From Halothiobacillus sp. (GTDB taxonomy: Bacteria; Pseudomonadota; Gammaproteobacteria; Halothiobacillales; Halothiobacillaceae), in contig JAGXIF010000003.1 in the NCBI GenBank assembly GCA_024635755.1, positions 1-46,697 of the forward strand: a stretch of 46,697 bases of DNA, read 5' to 3'. The notes under the pieces are model-generated. The model was not told where the DNA came from, searched no databases, and was given only the letters and a program-made list of their open reading frames with translations. The position numbers and the translations under genes were made by a program. Of this stretch, positions 731 to 12,585 are shown piece by piece. The stretch's first letter is position 1. Each line of letters opens with the position of its first letter.

Positions 731-1231
731 TCAGTCCGCAGCCACGGACAACGGGTACGCGCCAGCCCCGTCATGCAAGGAAACATGTAGCCCGCTCGGG
801 AACTGCTCTTGGCCCACTATGATCAGCAGGAATGCGTTTAAGCGATGTGTCGACTTCACAAACTGGTCTGACAATGTCACCAGATCTCGCCCGGATGGGC
901 GCGGGACTGGTTCAGGGTGAGTATGCCAACCTCCCAAGAATTGAAGTCCTGCCTCGAAGAACTCATCTATCTCGGCTTGTTCGGCAAAACGATCAGCGAC
1001 ATAACTCGTCCGACCGCGGCGATCGGTTGGACGCGGGCCTGAAGCATGAACAACAGATACCACGGAGGAAGACACCCTCCCGAACAATAGCCCCCCGGCC
1101 TCCCTCGACCAGAAACAACGCTGTTGATGGGTCGCGAAATGATCGGTGACCGCCTCAAAAATGCAGATCTCTTGAGAAGAGGAGCCAACCGGAAAGCGTA
1201 ACTGGCACTTCGAAGTCGACCCTGACGTCAC
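731..1231 (-). CDS. cap3: CBASS Cap3-type JAMM deconjugating protease
   Basis: The protein is about 166 aa and has the JAB/JAMM zinc-isopeptidase pattern: glutamate in EAGGLLFG (near residue 44), then GGWHTHPEPVPRPSGRD giving H103, H105, S113 and D116. In type II CBASS, Cap3 removes the CD-NTase from proteins to which Cap2 has attached it and tunes the system. It is the third gene of the minus-strand set. I place the start at the GTG whose bases overlap the Cap2 stop (GTGA), because longer versions use TTG and run deep into cap2. The family is clear and the CBASS role follows from its neighbours. Confidence 0.85.
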   Translation of the reverse strand: MTSGSTSKCQLRFPVGSSSQEICIFEAVTDHFATHQQRCFWSREAGGLLFGRVSSSVVSVVHASGPRPTDRRGRTSYVADRFAEQAEIDEFFEAGLQFLGGWHTHPEPVPRPSGRDLVTLSDQFVKSTHRLNAFLLIIVGQEQFPSGLHVSLHDGAGAYPLSVAAD

Positions 1232-3045
1232 GCTCCGCCCCCCTGAAGAGGTGGCCAACTCATCTGCCGAACTACACCACCCACCTCACCACTGCAGACG
1301 TCTTCCCACGCCTTGGTCCACTTCCCACCGGCACTTTCGAGCAGAGCTGACCGCCCGGCCCAGAAACGGACAACAGACCCTTGTTCCGCGCCTAACAGAG
1401 CGTCGAGAGCAAGCTCAGAAGAGGTCGCAATAGTCTGAGCCAACTCTATTGGGCCGTACGGCTGGTAAATGGCCCCGCAGGCAGGCTCTTGATAAATGTC
1501 AGGAGCACCAGACCAGTCGGTCACTTGCAAGCCGGGCTCTCCGAAGGAAGACATCCCACTAGCCAGTGATTCGTCGGCTGCCGCAATCAAGACTGCCTGA
1601 CCGGCACAGGCGTTAGCCTCTGTCCATGCATAGAGCACGTCGGCTGCCGGCTTATGCAACTGGTGCCACTCATCCAATGAACCTTCAGAACTCCAGCTAC
1701 CGATAGCACTGATGATCAAATCAGCATGCTGAAGCGTGTCAGGACCTTCAGCGTGGAACTCCTGCCAAGTTTTTGGGCGAGGCTCACAAAACCTCATATG
1801 GGGATAGTCGGCGAGGAGCTTCGCGGAAAGCTCGTTCGCTTTTTTTTTGCCAATGCTCTGCGCACCCAGGGGGTGCCGACCAACATTGGCCCAACTCAAT
1901 GCATCGGGATCAACCAGCGTGATCCCCCCAACACCCGCTTGGGCCAGCATTACTGCTATTGGCGCCCCAACGGAACCACACCCCAAAACGACAACATTCT
2001 TCTTAAACAGCAAAGCCTGTCGGCTATCGCGGCCACGACCATGTATCCACGCCGGGTCAGCTCGCTCCACATCATGTCTCTTCAATGTTCCGCTCTGAAG
2101 GAAAAGCCTTGCAGCCCTTTCTGGAGGCATCCTGCCGGGACGAAACCCTTTCTCGAGGGCACTAGGCCCCCTGCGGTAAGCCCCCCAAGTGGCTTTAAGG
2201 GGCCGCCACGCGGTAACAGCCGTCAAAGCCGCACCGTGCTGGGTCCGCGCAGACAACACCACCAAGAACTGCGCTGCCTTAGTGTTCGCCGTTTTCGCCG
2301 CGACCTTCATCAATAGCCGCTCTTCCGCCTCTCCTAGGCGCCCAACCAAGTCCGTCAGGTCCGTTGGTCGCGAAGGGTATTCCGACGGCACAAGAGGCTG
2401 ATCTAAAGCCAAAAAAATCCCCTGGCGGGTTGTGAACGGGTCCGGCTTCCCAGACCTGGAAAAGTGAGAAACCCAGCGCCCGAGAGCCTCGTGAGACTCT
2501 CCAGCCAAATAAAACAGCTCCCCAGCCCAAAACACAATCTCCCGAGAGGGTCCGTCGGGATCGGAAATGAACCGGACTCGTTTCGCTGCTGGAGTTGCAG
2601 TCCAGTAAGAGAGGAGCTCCTCACGGAAATCATTCTCGCACCCACCTCCAGCACAGCCTTCATACAGCCGAAGCGCTTGCCTGAGCACATACTGGACTTG
2701 GCTTACTGGGCGAGCCGGATCCCCCTGAACTTCATTTGGTGCCGCACAAAGCACTCCGTTGTGCTCTAGGTGAGGCATGCTCAAAAACTCAGGAGCGTTC
2801 TCCAGCGCCACCTTGGGTAGGCGCCAGGGAAACTGATCACAAAGCAGCAGCTCGAACGCCACCTCGCCCCGGCTAGACTTCACTGGGACACGCCACCCAC
2901 TCCGAACTCGAATCCCTTTGAAGCGTCGGAACTCCTGCGTTTTCAGAGGCCGAATCTTGTCGGCCGACTGCATCAACCATCGTTCGACTTCGGCTACCGC
3001 TTCGCCCCAACGGGAATTGAACGACCCTCCTGTCGAGTCAGGCAT
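1228..3045 (-). CDS. cap2: CBASS Cap2-type fused E2-E1 ubiquitin-transfer-like protein
   Basis: This protein of about 605 aa has an N-terminal E2-like domain (HNGVLCAAP, candidate transfer cysteine C100), a linker, and a C-terminal ThiF/E1 adenylation domain with the nucleotide loop VVVLGCGSVGAP followed by an acidic strand, LVDPDAL. Candidate E1 cysteines lie in NACAGQ and PACGAIY. In type II CBASS, Cap2 adenylates the CD-NTase C-terminus and links it to other molecules, priming cyclic-nucleotide synthesis. The ATG at 3045 overlaps the CD-NTase stop by 8 nt; a GTG 15 nt upstream is possible. The order CD-NTase, Cap2, Cap3 is the standard arrangement. Confidence 0.9.
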   Translation of the reverse strand: MPDSTGGSFNSRWGEAVAEVERWLMQSADKIRPLKTQEFRRFKGIRVRSGWRVPVKSSRGEVAFELLLCDQFPWRLPKVALENAPEFLSMPHLEHNGVLCAAPNEVQGDPARPVSQVQYVLRQALRLYEGCAGGGCENDFREELLSYWTATPAAKRVRFISDPDGPSREIVFWAGELFYLAGESHEALGRWVSHFSRSGKPDPFTTRQGIFLALDQPLVPSEYPSRPTDLTDLVGRLGEAEERLLMKVAAKTANTKAAQFLVVLSARTQHGAALTAVTAWRPLKATWGAYRRGPSALEKGFRPGRMPPERAARLFLQSGTLKRHDVERADPAWIHGRGRDSRQALLFKKNVVVLGCGSVGAPIAVMLAQAGVGGITLVDPDALSWANVGRHPLGAQSIGKKKANELSAKLLADYPHMRFCEPRPKTWQEFHAEGPDTLQHADLIISAIGSWSSEGSLDEWHQLHKPAADVLYAWTEANACAGQAVLIAAADESLASGMSSFGEPGLQVTDWSGAPDIYQEPACGAIYQPYGPIELAQTIATSSELALDALLGAEQGSVVRFWAGRSALLESAGGKWTKAWEDVCSGEVGGVVRQMSWPPLQGGGA

Positions 3046-4240
3046 GCCTGTTGCTGCCACCTAGCTTCACTGCTTCTTTTCCACCCGAGTCATTCAACAG
3101 GCCGTGATCCAAAACTCTGGTCCCGTCCTCTGAGACCAAGTCACCATCCATGGGAATCCGCTCCCCGAACGCCACGGCTAACCTTCCGAGCGCCGCTTCG
3201 GGATCGTCCGTTTCCTTCATCGCTGACGCCAAGTCCCAATGAAGCGATTGCGCAGCGCAGATGTACGCTTGACGATCTTCTGGCGACCACCCTTCGTCGA
3301 GGTACGCTCCCTCGACGACAGGGTTCTTCACCCGATCAGCGAGAACTTTGGGGAGCCGAGACGCAACAGCCAGCAAGGCCAAGTCATCACGATTCTCAGG
3401 GAGCTCACTGCCCTCCTCTTCGTAGGTGGTCACGACGGATGACATCAAAGCAATGGAGGCCAAACCACACGACTCCCATTGGGAGTCACGCCAGCCTTTC
3501 AAATATCGACACTGCCTACGCAGTTGCGCGCCATGGCCGTGCACAGCATCTTTAAACCAAGACTCCAGCTTACGAGGGTCGGACTCCTTCCAGCCCTCAT
3601 CCCGATGGGCCAACATGATCCGGTCTGAGGCCAGGTCGCGATAGACGGCTTCGTTAAGCTCAAAGTCAGCGCTGTCGGCCTTTACCGCTTCATTTAACGC
3701 CTCGTTCAACTCATAGAACTCGGCGTCTGGGACAGCGTAAAGCGCGACGTCCATGTGTTCATCACGGGACAACTGCACACGAACGCACGACGACTTATCA
3801 CTGTTCAGCTCCCACCCTTCACGCTTACAGAAAGGCCGAAGCACCGCCTCCACCGCCTCAAAGTACCCGGCGCTCATGAGGGCTGGATGTGAAGCCCCAT
3901 TACCCTGGAGGAATGACACAGGTAAAAACATGCCATCATCCAGATCAATTTGTTGGGGAGGCGTTTTCTCTGCGGAAATGTGCGTGTGATAGGCGAAGCT
4001 GCCCTGCATTCTGAACTTCGGACGAAGCGAATATGGCGGATCGAAGCTCTCGTGAATCTCGAAAAGCTGTTCAGGCGAGACCACATCCGACCAATTGCGG
4101 AGAGCATCGCGAAGCTCCCTGCGAATCTTGTCACGAGCCAACCTCAGTCGCTTCTCAGACTGATCGTCAACCTGCAGGGCCTGTTGGTACCCATCCTTGT
4201 CCCCTCTACCTCTAAAGACGCCATCCAAATTGAGTCCCAT
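3038..4240 (-). CDS. cdn: CBASS CD-NTase (DncV/cGAS-like nucleotidyltransferase)
   Basis: About 400 aa. The nucleotidyltransferase signature is visible: QGSFAYHTHI (G80-S81), then IDLDDGMFLP carrying the metal aspartates D99 and D101, with a third candidate, D164, in HMDVALY. The spacing and DDG context resemble DncV-like enzymes, which make cyclic di- or trinucleotides when phage infection is sensed. The C-terminus ends GGSNRHA, the end that Cap2 would activate. I chose the ATG at 4240 because GGAGGAA lies just upstream at normal spacing; an ATG at 4255 would put this site inside the gene. The exact nucleotide product cannot be told from sequence. Confidence 0.88.
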   Translation of the reverse strand: MGLNLDGVFRGRGDKDGYQQALQVDDQSEKRLRLARDKIRRELRDALRNWSDVVSPEQLFEIHESFDPPYSLRPKFRMQGSFAYHTHISAEKTPPQQIDLDDGMFLPVSFLQGNGASHPALMSAGYFEAVEAVLRPFCKREGWELNSDKSSCVRVQLSRDEHMDVALYAVPDAEFYELNEALNEAVKADSADFELNEAVYRDLASDRIMLAHRDEGWKESDPRKLESWFKDAVHGHGAQLRRQCRYLKGWRDSQWESCGLASIALMSSVVTTYEEEGSELPENRDDLALLAVASRLPKVLADRVKNPVVEGAYLDEGWSPEDRQAYICAAQSLHWDLASAMKETDDPEAALGRLAVAFGERIPMDGDLVSEDGTRVLDHGLLNDSGGKEAVKLGGSNRHA

Positions 4241-4324
4241 AGCCACTTCCTCCATCGACTTCGGTTAGCCTAGCAATCCATAATACTCACCATCTGGACA
4301 ATTTGAACCCAAGAGACGCTAAGC

Positions 4325-4972
4325 ATGTATCACCTACTTCCTATTAGACGAGCCATAATATGGTTTTTTTTATTGTGCCTAGTATTTTTCCTGATCGCTG
4401 CACACTTTTCCAAGCCAGAAGGGTGGCTTGAGCCCCTGAAGCTGGGATCGCTTGTCGTGGCAGGAATGACAGGGCTAGTTTTATTTTTTGGAGAATCAAG
4501 AGCCTTCCCATGGGTAATAAAATACACACCACTAAAGACCTTATTCCCATACATCGAGGGAGAGTGGGCAGTCCTTATACAATCAAACTGGAAAAAGGTC
4601 AGAGAAATTAATGACTTAGCAGACAACGAAGAACAAACATCAGATCCAAAAACGGCAAAGGCAACTATAAAAGCACGGCTGTTCTCAGTCACATTGCTGC
4701 TTGAAACGGACGACAAATACTCCGAATCCGAAACAATTTTCGCAATACCAGAGAGAAACAAGAAGAACGGCAACACCCGATTGCATTACATCTATCACAA
4801 CGAAACACGCAACCCGGAAGAAACCGACTGCAGCCGACACTATGGCGCGGCGTATCTCGACACAAAAGCCCCAAGCACCATGCCGAAAAGATTAGAGGGG
4901 GTGTATTGGACAAACAGAAGCTGGCACAAGGGGCTAAACACTGCCGGAAGCATTTCCTTTCATCGAGAATAG
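4325..4972 (+). CDS. cap15: CBASS Cap15-like membrane effector (2TM plus beta-barrel)
   Basis: 215 aa. Two hydrophobic segments (about residues 8-28 and 38-57) precede a beta-rich soluble part beginning FPYIEGEW. Later come LHYIYHNE, HYGAAYLD, LEGVYW and NTAGSISFHR, the recurring pattern of the SMODS-associated 2TM beta-strand-rich (Cap15) family. Known Cap15 binds the cyclic nucleotide in its barrel, oligomerises and disrupts the inner membrane, killing the infected cell. It is unusual in being transcribed away from the other CBASS genes, with 84 bp between starts. Base composition is AT-rich compared with the backbone. Assignment rests on pattern and context. Confidence 0.8.
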   Translation: MYHLLPIRRAIIWFFLLCLVFFLIAAHFSKPEGWLEPLKLGSLVVAGMTGLVLFFGESRAFPWVIKYTPLKTLFPYIEGEWAVLIQSNWKKVREINDLADNEEQTSDPKTAKATIKARLFSVTLLLETDDKYSESETIFAIPERNKKNGNTRLHYIYHNETRNPEETDCSRHYGAAYLDTKAPSTMPKRLEGVYWTNRSWHKGLNTAGSISFHRE

Positions 4973-5046
4973 AAATTATTGTCAGGGACAAGGCGGTTTG
5001 AATCGCCCCGACAGCCTTGATTCCGCCTTCCTAAGGCCACCAGCCA

Positions 5047-5541
5047 TCAGTTATTAGGCTCCGGCAACCGACGACCTCGTCGCCAATCCCACGGCGAGAT
5101 AAACTCTCCACGCCAAATGCCTTTAGCAGACGATTTTGCCGCCTCCTCGTCCTTAACATACCGCACAGTATAGTAGCGATAGGCAATGGCCCAGCCTTCT
5201 CGAACCATTTCTCGATTGATGTTGACGCCATCTCTAAAGCATGTGCCAATCAATCGATCGTAATCATCCCTGTCGTGAAATTCGCAACGAACGTCCTCTC
5301 CTGAGAGGAGATTTGTCAATGCCAAAGTGGCTTGCTCTCCACAACGCCACTCCTCACCACTAGCATCTCTGCAAAACTGACCAGATTCTGGGGAGTCAAT
5401 CCCCCCAAGGCGGACTCGCGTACCCTCGACATCGATCGTATCCCCATCGACGACATGCGCCTGCCCGGAAACCGCACCATCTCCGGATAACGAAAACAAC
5501 AGGGCGATCGCTTGAAAAAGATTCGATAACAAAATACTCAT
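5047..5541 (-). CDS. Exported thermonuclease-like (SNase) nuclease
   Basis: 164 aa with a hydrophobic N-terminus (residues 1-20, signal peptide or anchor) followed by a staphylococcal-nuclease fold. VVDGDT carries metal-site aspartates, VRLGGIDSPE carries the catalytic arginine and glutamate (R44, E52), and DYDRLIG the second arginine (R96). Four cysteines could form disulfides outside the cytoplasm. Family members cut DNA and RNA with calcium. It lies 33 bp downstream of the membrane nuclease gene on the same strand, so the two are probably co-transcribed. Whether it serves nutrition, defence or DNA uptake cannot be decided. Confidence 0.85.
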   Translation of the reverse strand: MSILLSNLFQAIALLFSLSGDGAVSGQAHVVDGDTIDVEGTRVRLGGIDSPESGQFCRDASGEEWRCGEQATLALTNLLSGEDVRCEFHDRDDYDRLIGTCFRDGVNINREMVREGWAIAYRYYTVRYVKDEEAAKSSAKGIWRGEFISPWDWRRGRRLPEPNN

Positions 5542-5574
5542 GCCCCGTTAATGATCACGCGGCCCACAGAACCA

Positions 5575-6660
5575 TCAAAGCACTTGCAACTGGCCTCTAC
5601 TTGTAATCTCTATCTGCGCCACGCCTTTGTATGAGGCAACCTCCCCAATCACACAGACATTTTCGCCAGGCAGAGTCTCCAAAAAATTCTCAAAAGTCTT
5701 GTCGACTTCGCCCCAGACCACTACTGCGAGCCTATCGCTATTAGGGAACTGCCGCCCTATGTTTATCCAGATAGGCGCACCGTCCAAGTCAGGGCGCGCC
5801 GAAACCTCCACAACTGGACCACTGGCAGCCACCTCTTGGCCAACGAACTCAGACACACGCCGCCAATGCAGCGGACTTCCGCAGTCAGTGCCAGCAGAAG
5901 AGGCAGCAGTTTGCGTTCCGGCCCGCAAGGACTTTTCGCCGGTAAAATCAGCGGGAGGCCCTTGGACCAATATGAAGGCAACAGCGACTATTAAGAAAAC
6001 CAAGGCCCAGATAGTCGTCTTCATAACATGAGAATCTTTTTTAAGGGTATGGATTTGCGATCGTGCGACATCAAGATCGGCCAACTCTTTTTTGTCGCCT
6101 CCTGTCAGTGCGCCAGATTTTGATTCTTCAAGCTGTTCTAGGACTGCGTCCTTTTCTTCCTGAAGCTGCCGAACTGTGGCAGAAGACCCTCCATCCTGAC
6201 GTCGGTGAATTTCATTTTCTAGTTTTTTCACCCTCTTGAGCAAGGAAGAAACATGCTCGGTTTTTGCTCTTTCGTTCCGCAAAAGTAGAGAGATGTGCTT
6301 GGAGCATCTTTCGGGCCTATCTCTCACATCCCGATTCGCGAATCTGATAACGACCCAGCCCTGTGAGACGAGAGAGGCCTCACGTCTCTGCCAATCCAGG
6401 AACTCTCGGTGGGTCATACCTGAGCCAACACCGCGCTTATCATAGCCATCAACTTCAATCGCAATTCTGACCGACTCGCCTTCTTCAATGGCGAAGTCAA
6501 TAAACCGCTGCCTGCCGTCGATATCTGTTATGGGGCGCTGTGCAGAGAGGCGCCCCCAGTCAAGATGCTCTACCTTGGGAAGAACGGAATTTGCGAAAAG
6601 AATCTCGTACTGGTTGCCGACTTTTCCCTTGTTTTTCCTTAGCCATAAATCAGCGTTCAT
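5575..6660 (-). CDS. Membrane-anchored PD-(D/E)XK nuclease with coiled coil and OB-fold domain
   Basis: 361 aa in four parts. Residues 1-130 resemble DUF559/Vsr-type endonucleases: D55 in RFIDFA, E69 and D71 in AIEVDGY, then QGWVVIRF. Residues about 135-210 are charged and probably coiled-coil. Residues about 215-234 are one membrane helix with lysines before it, so the nuclease should face the cytoplasm. Residues 265-361 form a beta-rich OB-like domain (EFVGQEVAASGPV, INIGRQFPNSD, VVVWGE, YKGVAQIEITS) of a kind I associate with SNase-type proteins. That domain would be periplasmic, where the adjacent exported thermonuclease acts. The combination is not one I can match to a named system. Confidence 0.7.
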   Translation of the reverse strand: MNADLWLRKNKGKVGNQYEILFANSVLPKVEHLDWGRLSAQRPITDIDGRQRFIDFAIEEGESVRIAIEVDGYDKRGVGSGMTHREFLDWQRREASLVSQGWVVIRFANRDVRDRPERCSKHISLLLRNERAKTEHVSSLLKRVKKLENEIHRRQDGGSSATVRQLQEEKDAVLEQLEESKSGALTGGDKKELADLDVARSQIHTLKKDSHVMKTTIWALVFLIVAVAFILVQGPPADFTGEKSLRAGTQTAASSAGTDCGSPLHWRRVSEFVGQEVAASGPVVEVSARPDLDGAPIWINIGRQFPNSDRLAVVVWGEVDKTFENFLETLPGENVCVIGEVASYKGVAQIEITSRGQLQVL

Positions 6661-6679
6661 TCCGCGGTCTCTCGTCTAT

Positions 6680-6802
6680 CTATTTACAAGCAGGATCAAC
6701 GTCTGGCGGCATTTCTCCCGTTTCCTCTATATATTCGATCTCCGCCCGAAGTCGACGCAATTGCCGCGTAGCCTCCGCTTTGGTATTATAAGGCAGTGTC
6801 AC
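6680..6802 (-). CDS. Possible 40-aa small protein upstream of the membrane nuclease
   Basis: A GTG-started frame encodes 40 residues including YNTKAEATRQLRRLRAEI and ending DVDPACK before TAG. It reads like a real small protein: one charged amphipathic helix, then a proline/aspartate-rich tail. It ends 19 bp before the membrane nuclease start and is preceded in frame by a stop. No strong ribosome binding site is visible and no family is recognised. It could be a regulator or partner of the nuclease pair, or a fragment of an older gene. Confidence 0.35.
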   Translation of the reverse strand: MTLPYNTKAEATRQLRRLRAEIEYIEETGEMPPDVDPACK

Positions 6803-6834: not shown

Positions 6835-7236
6835 TTAATCCATCACGTCATACCCATAAAACTTATAAAGAAGCGACCTAACACTGTCTGTAATTAGCTC
6901 CTTGTCCGACACCCTTAGCCGCGGAAAGAACTTACCCTTAAAATCCTCAACATCATCACAGTGACTTCTGTTCATGCTGTCAAATGGTTTCCCGTGAGTA
7001 AAGTAATTGTATCTCGCATGGCCACAATCAGATGCCGCGTTCATAATGGAATCAAGTTTTTTCTTGATTTCTTTTGTGCTTTGAAATGGCGCCAGAGGGA
7101 GCTTTCCAGTGTACTCTCTTTTCATTTCGTGGCTGAAATTATCCAAAACGGCCCTCGTCGCGGGAGAAATAGACGAGTGCGCCAAGGATGAAAACGTCGA
7201 TAAAAGAAGAAAAAAGCCTATTGTGATTTTTTTCAC
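6835..7236 (-). CDS. Small exported protein of unknown function
   Basis: About 133 aa. Starting at the GTG at 7236 the protein begins KKITIGFFLLLSTFSSLAHS, a textbook signal peptide. GGAGGG lies just upstream of this GTG, whereas the ATG four codons earlier overlaps that site and has none of its own. The mature part is polar and carries two cysteines (SDCGHARYN and RSHCDDVEDF) that could form a periplasmic disulfide. I recognise no family. It is AT-rich like neighbouring cargo and unlike the backbone. Confidence 0.6.
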   Translation of the reverse strand: MKKITIGFFLLLSTFSSLAHSSISPATRAVLDNFSHEMKREYTGKLPLAPFQSTKEIKKKLDSIMNAASDCGHARYNYFTHGKPFDSMNRSHCDDVEDFKGKFFPRLRVSDKELITDSVRSLLYKFYGYDVMD

Positions 7237-7429
7237 TTTACCCTCCATGCGTGAAATAGGGAATCTCGTTGTGGTAAACCACTTTCGCAGGAAATGCTGG
7301 AAGGCTCAACTTGCAAGTGCAACACAACGGGCGGCCGGTTTCAGTCGGTTGGGCGGCAAACCGCGGCAAGCCATCTTGTCAGCGGGTGGAAATGCTTTCG
7401 AGTAGGCCGGATCGAGTCGACACCGCCTC

Positions 7430-7660
7430 AGTCCGTATTCCCCCCGATCCATCGCTGGCAACGGCCGATTCAGATCGCGGTCGCCCAAACCTCGAGCGTA
7501 CGCGTTGCACTGCCACCGAACGAACTACTCCAACAGGTTCTCGTTCTCCTGCCGCAGCCGCTCGTTCTCCGCCTTCTAGACGTGCCAGGCGCTCCTTGGT
7601 GAGCTTGTAGGCGTCCTTGATCCTGGCGTGCCGATGGGAAGGGTCCGTCGGGATGGACGA
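7430..7660 (-). pseudogene. Decayed copy of the ginD 3' half
   Basis: This segment matches the 3' part of ginD (8588-8992) closely over long runs, for example GTACGCGTTG, CCACCGAACGAACT and GTGAGCTTGTAGGCGTCCTT. It contains an extra G in the run near 7441-7446, an in-frame stop, and a deletion of the stretch matching about 8745-8810. No intact frame remains. It looks like the scar of an earlier island of the same family, or of an internal duplication. Confidence 0.7.
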
Positions 7661-8014
7661 GCACTGAGAACCGGCTTACAGACATACCAAAGAAAAACGC
7701 ACTGCCCGAACGCACCTCAAGCCGTCAACAAGCCCTGCGCCAATCTCCATGTCACTACCCATCCGGTGACATGGCGTCACTCTATGGCCCGCATGGTGGA
7801 GTGCTTTACGGTGTAACCGCCACCTGCAGGTGACTCCCTGCGAATGTCCTCCGGCATCTCTTGACCAGAAGATCCGAGTTTTTGTTTGACAGCAGACGGC
7901 TGAAAATCCATTAACGGTGACGAAATTGAAACCCTAAAAGACTAAACCTCTGTGTTCGGATTGTCTCCCCTGAACGATTTTATTGACATTACTCATGTAA
8001 ACCTCATTCATCAC
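7661..8014. other. Intergenic stretch without a gene
   Basis: I see no credible coding frame. Short palindromic runs occur around 7757-7780 (GTCAC ... GTGACATGGCGTCAC). The left part continues from the decayed ginD copy and the right part ends at the stop of the lipoprotein gene. Confidence 0.4.
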
Positions 8015-8398
8015 TCATCGCCCCCAGCGCTTCTCAATGACATACGTTAACCCATATTGCTCGCGGTTTTTGTCCACCACATCTTGAACAGCGTAGCCTG
8101 GCAGTAGCCGGAAATTATTTCTTCCCATGCAGTTCCGATACATGCCGAATATTTGGGCCTGGTTCGAAAACCCAATAGTTTCATACCTATCACGTATAAC
8201 TGACATGCAATGGAGGTCCGCCCGCTCCCAATACATAAAGAATTGTTCTTCCTGATCTGGAGGGATTACTGACTTATCTACTAGTTCGAAATTCTGAAAT
8301 CTAGGGAAAGAATCGCGGTCACCACCGCCCCCTGCGGAATAAAGTGCCGAACAGCCAGACATTATTATAAATCCGAAAATAATTAATATAAACCTCAT
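8015..8398 (-). CDS. Small lipoprotein of unknown function
   Basis: About 127 aa. From the ATG at 8398 the protein starts MRFILIIFGFIIMSGCSAL, a signal peptide with a lipobox-like IMSGC, so it should be lipid-anchored. AAGGAG seven bases upstream supports this start over a longer frame. The mature part contains two further cysteines, ADLHCMSVI and YRNCMGRN. No family is recognised. It is AT-rich island cargo between two decayed ginD fragments and may have been acquired with them. Confidence 0.6.
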   Translation of the reverse strand: MRFILIIFGFIIMSGCSALYSAGGGGDRDSFPRFQNFELVDKSVIPPDQEEQFFMYWERADLHCMSVIRDRYETIGFSNQAQIFGMYRNCMGRNNFRLLPGYAVQDVVDKNREQYGLTYVIEKRWGR

Positions 8399-8530
8399 GC
8401 ACTTCTCCTTATTTTTGCGTTGGATCATCGTTGCCGCAAAAGCGGGCGTGTCATATGAAAAAGAAAATTGCGAGATAACTCCGCGTCACCCAAACTTGCC
8501 CACAGATAGAAACCGGCAGGCCAACTTCGG

Positions 8531-8587: not shown

Positions 8588-8992
8588 CTAATCCGTATTC
8601 CCCCGATCGATCGATGGCAACGACCGATTCAGATCCCGATCGCTCAAACCTCTAGCGTACGCGTTGTACTGCCACCGAACGAACTGCTCCAAGAGGTTTG
8701 CATTCTCCTGCCGCAGCCGTTCGTTCTCTGCCTCCAAACGCGCCAGGCGCTCTGCAGCCGCTTTCATCGTAGGCGGCAGGGATAGGGACTCATCCGCTTC
8801 CTTCAGACGCTCTTTGGTGAGCTTGTAGGCGTCCTTGATCCTGGCATGCCGGTGGAGGGTCTGTCGGGACGGACGAGTGCCGAGAATCGGCTCACAGGCG
8901 TCACACAGCCGATCCCAGGTAAGCTTGTCCCGCCATCCATCGAGAAGCCCGACGACGGCCTCGATGTCACGATCCGTCAGATGACGAGCCAT
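8588..8992 (-). CDS. ginD: Small coiled-coil protein of the GInt recombination operon (GinD-like)
   Basis: 134 aa. An N-terminal helical region with HTH-like character (TWDRLCDACEPILGTRPSRQTLHRH) is followed by a coiled coil (about residues 75-105, AAERLARLEAENERLRQENA) and a basic tail. It follows three tyrosine recombinases and overlaps the end of ginC by 26 nt. Small proteins of this kind accompany recombinase sets in Tn554 (TnpC) and in GInt islands (GinD), where they are needed for or influence recombination. Assignment rests mainly on position and architecture. Confidence 0.7.
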   Translation of the reverse strand: MARHLTDRDIEAVVGLLDGWRDKLTWDRLCDACEPILGTRPSRQTLHRHARIKDAYKLTKERLKEADESLSLPPTMKAAAERLARLEAENERLRQENANLLEQFVRWQYNAYARGLSDRDLNRSLPSIDRGNTD

Positions 8993-11012
8993 CGCGCTTC
9001 TCCAACAGTGAGGGCATGCCGGTCAGCAAACGCCGTTCCTCTTCGCTGATCTCTCCGCGAGAAGCCTTGGCCTCGACCGCCCGCCGATGGGGACTGAACT
9101 CGTTGGGGTTTCTGAGCCTGATCATGGCCCCGTTGGGGACATCCGGGTCTTCATAGATGCGGATCAACTCCCGGTAGCGGATCTGGGCTTGCTTATGAAC
9201 TTCGTACCACCGATCAGCGCCCGCAGTTCCCTCGGCGATCTCTTCTTCAGCCCGTTCCACCTGGGAATCGACAATCCCGTAGAGCTCCTTGATCCGGTCG
9301 ATGCGCCGGTCGCCTTTCACGCATACGTGCTCGGTGCAGTTGATGCAATCTCTGAAGCGCTGACACGGCGACATCGAGAAGTCATGACCACAAAAGCCGA
9401 ACTCCGTGACGTGAGCTGTCGGCATTTCCAAGGCATTGAACTCCTGGGTTGTCATCGGGAGCTTCCTGGCCACCTGTTCGGCAAGCTCTCCCGTCGTTAG
9501 GTCAGTCCGCAGAGCCGGATCGTGTTGTCGAACCATGTCGGCCAACTCGAATTCGTCCATGTGGTCATAGACGCGGTTCTGCCGCATGTCAGCCCGCCCT
9601 GCCCAACGTGCGATTTCTGCTTGGCCCAACCCGCCACGCTGGCTCATGGTGTCGAGCAAATGTCGGAACTGATGGCTCGTCACCTTCAAAGGGGACAATC
9701 GCCCCTTATTCAATCCATGCCGCTCGAAGATGGATTGGGCAACCTCTGATCGCGATCCCAGTTCGTCGTTGAGCATGTTCGCGGTCGGCCTCCAGACTCG
9801 GTAGGGGTTCGCCCCCATGTCCGTACGCAACTGAAGGTCTTGGAAGCAAAACAAGGCTTCCGAGTACCGAAGATCATAACCTTCGTTGAAAATGGGAAAC
9901 CCTTTTGGAAGCCGTGTGCGCACCAATTGGCTCAAGTCCCACAAAGTATTCCCACCATCCCTCGAAGATAATCCGAGAGCTTTAAGTCGTCCCTTCTTGT
10001 AGTGGGCAGACCCCTCTATTGCCAGCGCGTCTACTGACTCCTTGAAGCTCAACGGCTGATCCGTCGGCACATCTGGGCACCCTGAATGTCGATAGAACTC
10101 ATCAGGATGATGCTCGAGCCAAGCAGCGATCCGCCTCCCCTCCTCCGTCAATTCCTTCAACCGCCGGATGGCCTCCTGAGCGATTTCCACCATCGGATCA
10201 GGAATCCACTTGATGAACGGGTTCGCTCCCTTTCTAGGCGTGAACCGCCAGCCGTAGGCCATACTTCCATTTCGCTTTTTCTCCCAGACTTCACAATCCA
10301 CTGGGAGAGAAAGAATCTCGGAGACGCGTGAGGGCGCGCATAACAGAAGCGCCACCGTACACGTCGTGAAAATATCTCTGGGTTCTCTCGGATTGCTGGC
10401 GAATAGCGAGGCAAGAACATCCAACGCCTCTTGATCAGGGAGTTTCCTTTCCCGCTCCTGCTTGGCCTTCTTCCCGGTTCGGACGGTGTCTCGGGGTCGC
10501 GGAAGAGGGTTCTTCCAGTCCAAGCGGGCCGATATAAAACCGTACTCCCCAATGAAGCCGATCAATTTTACCAGTCCCCCACCAACTCGGTTCGCCCGAC
10601 TTGGCCAATAGCGTTCCCCGGCAATCACTCCCGCTCGATCAGCCACGGCATGATTGAGGCCCGACAAATCTGAACTTCCGGTCACGTCGACCAAGGCTCT
10701 CTCAAGAACCCGGAGCGCGGGAATCTCAAGCATCGAGGTCGTGGGGCGAACGCCTTGCTGATAACGGAAGTAGGCCTTGGCAAAATCCTTGAAAGGCTGA
10801 GAAAGCGGGTGAGCGACGACAGCATCCGCGCGCGGCCTAGTCGACTGGTCCAAGTTGCTAAACGTGACACCGACTTCACGCCAATAATCATCATCCCATT
10901 TCAGATCGGCCCCAAAGACAGTCAGATCGTCGCGGCAATGTTGGATGAACTCATCGACGCGCTCCTTCGCATCAAGTTCCGGCCGAGGGACAAAGCGAAC
11001 AACCTCACCCAT
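8967..11012 (-). CDS. ginC: Tyrosine recombinase, third of the operon (GinC-like)
   Basis: About 681 aa, much longer than a phage integrase. Tyrosine-recombinase residues are visible: the arginine of LCAPSRVSEILSLP, HQFRH in the HxxR box, and the nucleophile candidate in QNRVYDHMDEF. A C-terminal cysteine cluster (CGHDFSMSPCQRFRDCINC and a further C) resembles a zinc-binding knuckle. ATG at 11012 overlaps the ginB stop by 8 nt; a GTG at 11042 is possible. The three recombinases are mutually dissimilar and presumably act together on the attachment sites. Confidence 0.8.
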   Translation of the reverse strand: MGEVVRFVPRPELDAKERVDEFIQHCRDDLTVFGADLKWDDDYWREVGVTFSNLDQSTRPRADAVVAHPLSQPFKDFAKAYFRYQQGVRPTTSMLEIPALRVLERALVDVTGSSDLSGLNHAVADRAGVIAGERYWPSRANRVGGGLVKLIGFIGEYGFISARLDWKNPLPRPRDTVRTGKKAKQERERKLPDQEALDVLASLFASNPREPRDIFTTCTVALLLCAPSRVSEILSLPVDCEVWEKKRNGSMAYGWRFTPRKGANPFIKWIPDPMVEIAQEAIRRLKELTEEGRRIAAWLEHHPDEFYRHSGCPDVPTDQPLSFKESVDALAIEGSAHYKKGRLKALGLSSRDGGNTLWDLSQLVRTRLPKGFPIFNEGYDLRYSEALFCFQDLQLRTDMGANPYRVWRPTANMLNDELGSRSEVAQSIFERHGLNKGRLSPLKVTSHQFRHLLDTMSQRGGLGQAEIARWAGRADMRQNRVYDHMDEFELADMVRQHDPALRTDLTTGELAEQVARKLPMTTQEFNALEMPTAHVTEFGFCGHDFSMSPCQRFRDCINCTEHVCVKGDRRIDRIKELYGIVDSQVERAEEEIAEGTAGADRWYEVHKQAQIRYRELIRIYEDPDVPNGAMIRLRNPNEFSPHRRAVEAKASRGEISEEERRLLTGMPSLLEKRDGSSSDGS

Positions 11013-12585
11013 TCTCTCTAAGCCCCTCTCGACGCCGCTCACAGAGCTTTACTACCTCTGCAACCGCAATGATCGTTCGATCATTTGTGGAAGCGATCAC
11101 CTCATCCTTTGTTTGTTCGGCAGTCTGTTCCCGCTGGGACACGAGTGAATGCAAGACTTCCGCGTGCGGACCGTTCAGCCATGGTTGAAAGGCTTTGCAG
11201 GTGTAACAAGCGATAGGCGCGAGTGCTCCACAGAAGCCATAGTGCCCACAGGTGCCAGCGCCCTTCCCATCATCAGTGCGGACGCGGCTAGTGAGATCGT
11301 CGCCTCGAATCGCGCCGCTCTCATCGTCAACAAGCATTCCGGCAAAAGCCTGGGCAAGAGGCGCAAGCTGGGAAGCCACGGCCTCGTTGATCGCATCGAC
11401 GTTCTCGGCAACGTTCTCGGTGTAGACCTTGACATTCTGCGTGTCGGAATGATCAAGAGCCTCGGCAATGGGGACGGAGCCATAGGCGGCTTCACGCGCC
11501 AGACGAGTCCCCAGCGTTCGCCGCAACCTAGTGGGAAAAACGTGCAAAGCCGACCCAGTTCGCTCGGACTGAACATTGAGCCTTTTAACGACTTCGACCA
11601 GGCGCTCGGATATAGACGAACTACGGGTGTGAAAGAGGTCCGTATGTGCCGCGGCGCGGAGCTGCTGTTTACCGTCATGCCCCCCAACGTAGGCGCTTAA
11701 GACCTCCCAATTGGGGAAAAGAGGGAGATGCGTGGCGACGGCGGGGTTCCCACCTAGATCCAGCCATCTCTTCTCCACTTCGCCGACAAGAGCCTTGATT
11801 ACCGCGCCATTCTCCACCGTCAGAGCGACTGGTCTGAACTCCTCTCGCAAAGCTCTGGCTTTTTGCTTTCTTCTCGGAACATTTAAAACGTATGCTACGG
11901 CTCCGTCAGCAATCGCTGCCTCGACAAGGTCGCCACACCGAAGATCCCCTATCTGAGACGGGCGCCTTCCTGTTGCGAGCAAGAGAATCGAGAGAGCATA
12001 ATCGGGCAGCGTTATTTTGCCGGACTCAAAGCCGTCAGCGAGAGCCAAGTGTAGCGCCTCATACTCGAGCTCGGAAAGCGGTCCTTTATAGGGATCACGC
12101 AAGGCTACAGCTTTACCCTTTCTGACTCCCCGTAAGCGCATCCCGCTCAAAACTCGAAGCACGTCTTCATCGATCCCGGGTTCCCCCCAGGAGACCCACC
12201 GCTTGAAAAAAGCGACCAAAGCACCCAGGTGATGCTCTCTCGAAGAGTCCAAAGTAGATCGATAACTGAGCACAATGGCAGGCGTGATGTGCCGAAGCGC
12301 GATGGAGGACTCAGAACCGTGACAAGCGTGCCCCACTAACCCTTTGAATTTTTCGACCACCGACCTCGTGGTGTGCGCGGCGTAATCTCGTGCTTGGCGC
12401 GCTAATGCTCGACGGAACCCGCTAAACAAGGGTTCTCCCAGCAAGACGGCTGTCCACTCCATTGAAAGGCTCACGTCACGCGACAACTTCCACCGGTTAG
12501 AGTCGGGATCAAACTCGTACCCATCTCGCGAAATCCACGGCTCACTTCTGACTACTAAGGGAAATTGCTTGTCACTCCTTGGCAT
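11005..12585 (-). CDS. ginB: Tyrosine recombinase, second of the operon (GinB-like)
   Basis: 526 aa. The first catalytic arginine lies in LLATGRRPSQIGDLR. The HxxR region is altered, reading HVFPTRLRRTLGTR, and is followed by DHSDTQNVKVYTENV with the candidate nucleophilic tyrosine. A C-terminal cysteine cluster (CGHYGFCGALAPIACYTC) mirrors that in ginC. It starts 2 nt after the ginA stop and overlaps ginC, so translation of the set is probably coupled. In the GInt and Tn554 families, several tyrosine recombinases are jointly required. Confidence 0.8.
   Translation of the reverse strand: MPRSDKQFPLVVRSEPWISRDGYEFDPDSNRWKLSRDVSLSMEWTAVLLGEPLFSGFRRALARQARDYAAHTTRSVVEKFKGLVGHACHGSESSIALRHITPAIVLSYRSTLDSSREHHLGALVAFFKRWVSWGEPGIDEDVLRVLSGMRLRGVRKGKAVALRDPYKGPLSELEYEALHLALADGFESGKITLPDYALSILLLATGRRPSQIGDLRCGDLVEAAIADGAVAYVLNVPRRKQKARALREEFRPVALTVENGAVIKALVGEVEKRWLDLGGNPAVATHLPLFPNWEVLSAYVGGHDGKQQLRAAAHTDLFHTRSSSISERLVEVVKRLNVQSERTGSALHVFPTRLRRTLGTRLAREAAYGSVPIAEALDHSDTQNVKVYTENVAENVDAINEAVASQLAPLAQAFAGMLVDDESGAIRGDDLTSRVRTDDGKGAGTCGHYGFCGALAPIACYTCKAFQPWLNGPHAEVLHSLVSQREQTAEQTKDEVIASTNDRTIIAVAEVVKLCERRREGLRENG

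Follow-up and report, generated by a model that had tools for sequence, protein, structure and literature searches.

A nuclease can be confined to injected DNA by anchoring it in the membrane, as described for SNIPE (PD-lambda-1; Saxton et al., Nature 2026, PMC13190303). According to the available text of that report, SNIPE joins a GIY-YIG nuclease to DUF4041, is mostly cytoplasmic apart from an N-terminal helix, and without the helix has a nuclease that is toxic to the host. Zorya and Kiwa are likewise membrane-localised defences aimed at injected DNA; they are built as a multi-subunit motor or a KwaA/KwaB lattice, and the accessible portion of the source describes for them neither an OB domain outside the membrane nor an exported nuclease (PMC12904381). 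Transformation is blocked by DNases encoded on mobile genetic elements (MGEs), namely by those of a Vibrio cholerae ICE and a Campylobacter prophage; like the nucleases considered here they are exported or element-borne, and the available parts of these reports describe no membrane-anchored partner for them (PMC11472951, PMC10893306). In Shewanella ExeM, an OB domain and a nuclease act together outside the cytoplasm within one exported polypeptide, as far as the accessible text goes (PMC6085458).

The gene described here lies in a 46,697-nucleotide stretch of DNA from Halothiobacillus sp. (GCA_024635755.1, contig JAGXIF010000003.1, positions 1 to 46,697), hereafter the window. Its product has the nuclease domain of the DUF559, MTES_1575 and Vsr-like PD-(D/E)XK proteins (PF04480, PF18741; 3hrl) and, beyond it, a membrane helix and an OB domain. 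YhcR is an exported nuclease with an OB region in one polypeptide. Unlike in ExeM and YhcR, the OB domain and the exported nuclease are separate proteins at this locus, and the OB domain is predicted to be tied to a cytoplasmic nuclease. With SNIPE, as far as it is described in the available text, the protein has in common a single inner-membrane helix predicted to tether a cytoplasmic nuclease, a variable accessory region beside a conserved nuclease, and the proposed cutting of entering DNA (PMC13190303). In contrast to SNIPE, it starts with a PD-(D/E)XK domain and has its helix in the middle, a folded OB domain is predicted outside, and an exported nuclease often adjoins. Membership of SNIPE was rejected, as scans of Pfam, NCBIfam and PADLOC found neither GIY-YIG nor DUF4041. 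In the papers that our literature search reached, no membrane nuclease with exchangeable exported nuclease neighbours was described, and a search for DUF559 with nuclease and transmembrane returned nothing. That the gene of this rare, mobile protein often has exported nucleases of several unrelated families as neighbours points to a barrier to DNA entry that has yet to be described. The features of the locus are as follows.

5575–6660, (-) strand: whole gene of the membrane-anchored DUF559 nuclease-like protein, 361 aa (ORF and Pfam DUF559)
6268–6660, (-) strand: predicted cytoplasmic PD-(D/E)XK nuclease domain, residues 1–131 (AlphaFold2, Foldseek, invariant residues)
6016–6267, (-) strand: charged, proline-free linker, probable coiled coil, residues 132–215 (composition)
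5959–6015, (-) strand: single membrane helix, residues 216–234 (hydropathy, charge bias)
5578–5889, (-) strand: predicted periplasmic OB domain, residues 258–361 (AlphaFold2, Foldseek, two cysteines)
5047–5541, (-) strand: gene 33 bp downstream for a 164-aa SNase (thermonuclease-family) protein whose export signal is weak (PF00565)
6680–6802, (-) strand: 40-aa ORF with a GTG start, a putative gene, upstream (ORF listing)

The 361-residue protein matches Pfam DUF559 (PF04480) with an E-value of 3.9e-5 and 23.9 bits, against a curated cut-off of 20.6. AlphaFold2 modelled the N-terminal domain with a mean pLDDT of 90.4, and the best match of this model in the PDB was the endonuclease-like 3hrl (Foldseek probability 1.00, E 5e-3). 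Nothing in the PDB was retrieved at E <= 0.001; further matches, weaker than E 5e-3, included R2 endonuclease, I-Bth0305I, Can2, TnsA and RecB. Eight residues (R52, D55, E69, D71, G72, K75, R93 and N109) are invariant in all 32 sequences of an alignment comprising the window protein and 31 relatives, from which near copies (L042, L047), a broken gene (L055), a sequence identical to L038 (L039) and one from the same genome as L046 (L015) were left out. For the structure alignments, 28 and 25 of these sequences were used, namely the window protein and those from genome loci. Relatives on viral contigs retain the active-site residues too, and the nuclease therefore seems to be selected for activity. 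By sequence, a PDB search with the whole protein yielded one chance match, profile searches of the PDB with both end domains yielded weak matches, and no family in PADLOC-DB 2.0.0 (2023) was found at E <= 0.1.

The linker is probably a coiled coil, judging by its composition: residues 131–214 contain 17 Lys or Arg and 15 Asp or Glu and no proline. Beyond the helix, the C-terminal domain was modelled as an OB fold with a mean pLDDT of 95.7. Foldseek found 68 matches to it in the PDB at E <= 0.001 (best E 4.2e-5), and the best 50 of these 68 include the OB proteins CST/Stn1, Asp- and Asn-tRNA synthetases, RPA and RecG, as well as 3f1z, an exported nucleic-acid-binding lipoprotein from Klebsiella. 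The sequence model PF01336 stays below its cut-off on the window domain (E 0.14, 12.5 bits versus 27). Exactly two cysteines are found in the OB domain of all 29 aligned sequences in which this domain is in frame, a pattern that would suit an oxidising compartment. Lysine and arginine are also richer just before the helix than just after it in 26 of the 32 sequences, which by a crude rule would place the N terminus inside and the C terminus outside; the remaining six lack this bias. Taken together, the charge bias and the cysteines favour, but do not establish, a nuclease on the cytoplasmic side and an OB domain in the periplasm.

An earlier reading of the DNA by itself, the sequence-only reading, had proposed a DUF559 nuclease with D55, E69 and D71, a single membrane helix and an OB-like domain, and had staked its proposal on the PD-(D/E)XK fold. 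All of these are borne out, the residues lying where they had been placed, the fold and the OB domain appearing in the models and the helix in the hydropathy profile. Its topology, with the nuclease inside and the OB domain outside, agrees with most of the aligned sequences and lacks the charge bias in the six mentioned. The CBASS genes that it had seen beside the pair are real (731–4972), as is the 40-aa ORF, which we did not adopt as a third component, the evidence pointing neither way.

The 164-residue product of the downstream gene, whose ORF follows on the same strand after a gap of 33 bases, is a clear SNase (PF00565: E 4.6e-16, 59.6 bits versus a cut-off of 21). The motifs GDT33, RVRL42, IDSPE48 and RLIG96, which we take to hold the catalytic residues, are all found, together with four cysteines. 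The protein matches one model in PADLOC-DB, SNc+LTD (E 3.5e-9), and a PDB sequence search at 1e-3 returned none. Gene and spacing are thus as the sequence-only reading had them; the signal peptide that it also assigned is plausible but weak by hydropathy, as the hydrophobic stretch at the N terminus has no Lys or Arg preceding it.

The membrane protein is rare. Full-length relatives occur in 2 of 398 genomes of a phylum sample, that of the window included. Among 369 genomes of the class, 20 gave matches and the window's own was the only full-length one; the others, being partial, DUF559-only or OB-only, were not counted as relatives, and in three genomes of the same genus in this sample no relative was found. 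Plasmid searches revealed relatives in Polaromonas, Vibrio, Acinetobacter and Roseomonas, including a full-length one on a Polaromonas plasmid (L012; tblastn E 6e-74), and a scan of genome contigs gave at least 30 loci, a lower bound because a single short pattern was used. Relatives are found on plasmids, islands and viral contigs. OB-only matches beside chemotaxis genes (L003, L005, L008) were set aside because of their different context. In an actinobacterial relative (L061:8989–9996), a short cysteine-bearing C-terminal domain replaces the OB domain and by eye looks like the domain at the C terminus of the EEP and EndA partners in Pseudomonas described below.

Four IMG/VR contigs (L072–L075) carry a variant with the nuclease domain and the helix and with no recognisable OB domain. 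Its genes are flanked by small genes on one side and on the other by a terminase gene, which is closest to the terminase genes of N4-like phages; superinfection-exclusion genes are known from this position. A tblastn search of 50,697 phage records with the window protein found no match, nor did one of the phage records with a viral-contig relative, and a scan of viral contigs with the window protein alone found none. On the same four contigs, a small protein with an export signal is encoded upstream of the variant and a cytoplasmic-looking protein downstream.

The window gene adjoins CBASS and recombinase genes, and the Polaromonas gene adjoins a gamma-mobile-trio element. Of eight neighbours at other loci that were picked by eye, with no null for comparison, six have matches in PADLOC, to Cas10, AbiEi, MkoA-like and both type I and other restriction-enzyme models. 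On the Acinetobacter indicus plasmid p80-1-2-tetX3 (L037:271–6908), the gene has the S gene of a type I restriction system on one side and the R gene on the other. The Polaromonas plasmid has a NUC-family gene split into two pieces (L012:1376–1939 and 9987–10499), which flank a stretch holding the gamma-mobile-trio genes, the membrane protein and an EndA gene.

We asked how often nuclease genes lie beside the membrane protein at 36 loci, comprising 30 genome loci, five plasmid relatives and the window. Four unrelated and mostly exported families were counted: SNase, NUC (PF01223), EndA and EEP. The choice of families was made with the first neighbours already known, a weakness common to all the neighbourhood tests, and export signals of neighbours were judged by hydropathy. 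A nuclease gene of these families lies within 4 kb at 14 of the 36 loci, a count that keeps some non-independent entries (W04/W05, G747/G748 and three Pseudomonas); the other 22 have none. NUC accounts for eight records, EndA and EEP for three each and SNase for one, with NUC and EndA both present in one record. Whole-genome searches of the 36 genomes or records found 27 SNase, 10 EndA and 123 EEP genes, and 26 NUC genes were found in the 35 searched for this family, the window's genome lying outside that search. Assuming uniform gene placement, 0.51 of 30 whole genomes, the window's excluded, would be expected to have a nuclease gene nearby, versus nine observed (p ~1e-9); when the three related Pseudomonas are counted once, the figure is 7 of 28 genomes (p ~4e-7). 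Flanking sequence at the 30 genome loci holds 12 nuclease genes in the 223,854 bases within 4 kb, against none in the 238,597 bases beyond (p 2e-4). By both tests the association is genuine: the membrane nuclease has exported nucleases as neighbours, and these are exchangeable.

In each of Acinetobacter HY1485, a Polaromonas MAG and Vreelandella, the genome's two NUC genes lie on either side of the membrane-protein gene. NUC is also nearby in Roseomonas, Vibrio and Acinetobacter calcoaceticus, an EEP nuclease gene adjoins in three Pseudomonas, and EndA is near on the Polaromonas plasmid. Weak cases are an intact EndA gene 3 kb away in Ignatzschineria (G756), a truncated EndA gene at the same distance in Nitrosomonas eutropha (G771) and a NUC gene behind an IS element on one Roseomonas plasmid (W05). 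Beside NUC genes at three loci (L045:7559–7801, L055:8436–8681, L060:3083–3346), a conserved protein of 80–87 aa, alike by eye, is encoded; its L060 copy has no Pfam match.

Among held-out loci, one of three evaluable ones has a nuclease gene (G924, but not G1314 or G1541); G1293 is cut by contig ends and was left unjudged, and the weak partial matches G1132 and G1332 were not counted. In G924, a Pseudomonas found by a search with the membrane protein alone, an EndA-family gene with an export-like start lies 11 bp from the membrane-protein gene. Its product shares a C-terminal domain with the EEP protein of sister Pseudomonas species (phmmer 3e-12), below threshold in both for Pfam Ada_Zn_binding, as if the catalytic domain had been swapped. 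Across 199 Pseudomonas genomes, EEP (E <= 1e-60) occurs in 15 and the membrane protein family in four, so each gene lives without the other. The nuclease partner is not obligate.

A second type of companion is a separate OB protein of 112–129 aa, found within 2.5 kb at 17 of the 36 loci, all in a Vibrio/Moraxellaceae-like branch; 16 of the 17 proteins have a clear hydrophobic start. As three loci hold both this protein and a nuclease, at least one companion is found at 28 of the 36 loci and neither at eight. A Ruegeria plasmid (L040) encodes an OB protein with an export signal (3554–3949) about 1 kb from an SNase gene (4926–5282), with no membrane protein. For a close relative on a Pseudosulfitobacter plasmid (L071), no adjoining nuclease is annotated.

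The SNase pairing itself stands alone. Only the window's SNase gene, among the 27, adjoins the membrane protein (0.09 expected), which makes it a sample of one, and we dropped the idea of a fixed two-gene system of membrane protein and SNase 33 bp apart. The sequence-only reading had made co-occurrence of the pair in other genomes decisive: the SNase pairing is found once in 36, and what recurs above chance is the membrane protein with other, mostly exported nuclease families. Recurrence with various nuclease families is more interesting than a fixed pair. The suggestion that the OB domain grips the SNase found no support. Action of the pair on DNA crossing the membrane may reasonably be proposed, and the interpretation as a whole is partly supported.

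We consider the chances about even that the locus encodes a two-sided barrier cutting DNA that crosses the envelope, SNIPE-like in its working but not SNIPE. The linker and helix would tether the DUF559 nuclease to the cytoplasmic face of the inner membrane, where it would cut DNA as it emerges and be kept off the chromosome. On the other face, the OB domain might hold DNA that is single-stranded or being threaded through, or alternatively the delivery machinery. The exported nuclease, or the exported OB protein in other lineages, would attack or handle the same DNA outside, the outer component being exchangeable. The topology, the cutting and holding of DNA, the joint action and the target, be it phage, plasmid or transforming DNA, we infer. 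The invariant active site, the modelled folds, the clustering of nuclease genes and of small OB proteins, the defence-gene neighbours, the position of the viral-contig variants and the precedent of SNIPE count for a barrier; against it count the 22 loci without a nuclease gene within 4 kb, the eight without either companion, the two of three held-out loci without a nuclease and the occurrence of EEP in Pseudomonas genomes that lack the membrane protein.

The main competing explanation keeps the same machine and gives it a different target: the pair would protect its own island by destroying transforming DNA, averting loss of the island when incoming chromosomal DNA recombines. Several of the hosts come from groups in which competence is known, among them Acinetobacter, Vibrio and Psychrobacter, and the partners here are exported nucleases of the EndA, NUC and EEP types. 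MGE-encoded DNases that block transformation are moreover established, according to the available parts of two reports (PMC11472951, PMC10893306). The relatives on viral contigs and the restriction and CRISPR neighbourhoods, however, point at least as much to defence against phage or DNA in general, and we regard protection from transformation as a serious but rather unlikely account. Distinctly unlikely, in our judgement, is that the membrane protein acts alone, in the fashion of SNIPE, which is a single protein in the available description (PMC13190303), with the nearby nucleases as separate island cargo. This would fit the 22 loci without such a gene and the occurrence of EEP without the membrane protein; yet 12 nuclease genes within 4 kb against none further out would be unexpected of loosely shared cargo, and four families with one role recur.

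Scavenging of extracellular DNA, with exported nucleases digesting environmental DNA and the membrane protein handling fragments at the inner membrane, finds a parallel in ExeM, an extracellular EEP nuclease that needs an OB-like region for activity in the accessible text (PMC6085458); it is very improbable for a protein so rare (2 of 398 genomes) and mobile, whose conserved nuclease domain on the predicted cytoplasmic side is ill-suited to nutrition. That the two window genes are neighbours by chance without a common function, as the single SNase pairing might suggest, is scarcely credible, given that they share a strand 33 bp apart and that the membrane protein recurs beside other nucleases.

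The two-sided barrier has a more specific form that we put forward tentatively and doubt more than we believe: one protein, linking a cytoplasmic nuclease to a DNA-holding domain in the periplasm, would recruit or work with any exported nuclease available. This would be a new class of barrier, acting on both faces of the inner membrane simultaneously, with entering DNA cut on both sides. Exchange of the outer catalytic family beside a fixed inner nuclease would be its signature. If true, the two-sided barrier would answer the same problem as SNIPE in a second and unrelated way, with incoming and chromosomal DNA told apart by location, and it would draw the periplasm into DNA discrimination; it may also explain part of the exported nucleases on mobile elements. 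The pairs of an SNase, NUC, EndA or EEP gene beside the same membrane protein are open to test.

Further along the window, a 691-aa protein (8967–11042) adjoins two integrase genes and matches no model in Pfam (E <= 0.01) or NCBIfam (E <= 0.001). Two small ORFs (6835–7248 and 8015–8428) have export- or lipoprotein-like starts, and Pfam, NCBIfam and PADLOC searches gave no match to them bar one chance-level PADLOC match. Two stretches are repeated between 7441–7637 and 8600–8855 (134 nt at 89% and 52 nt at 92%), so that 7294–7715 looks like a remnant copy of the ORF at 8588–8992; these repeats perhaps reflect nested or successive insertions.
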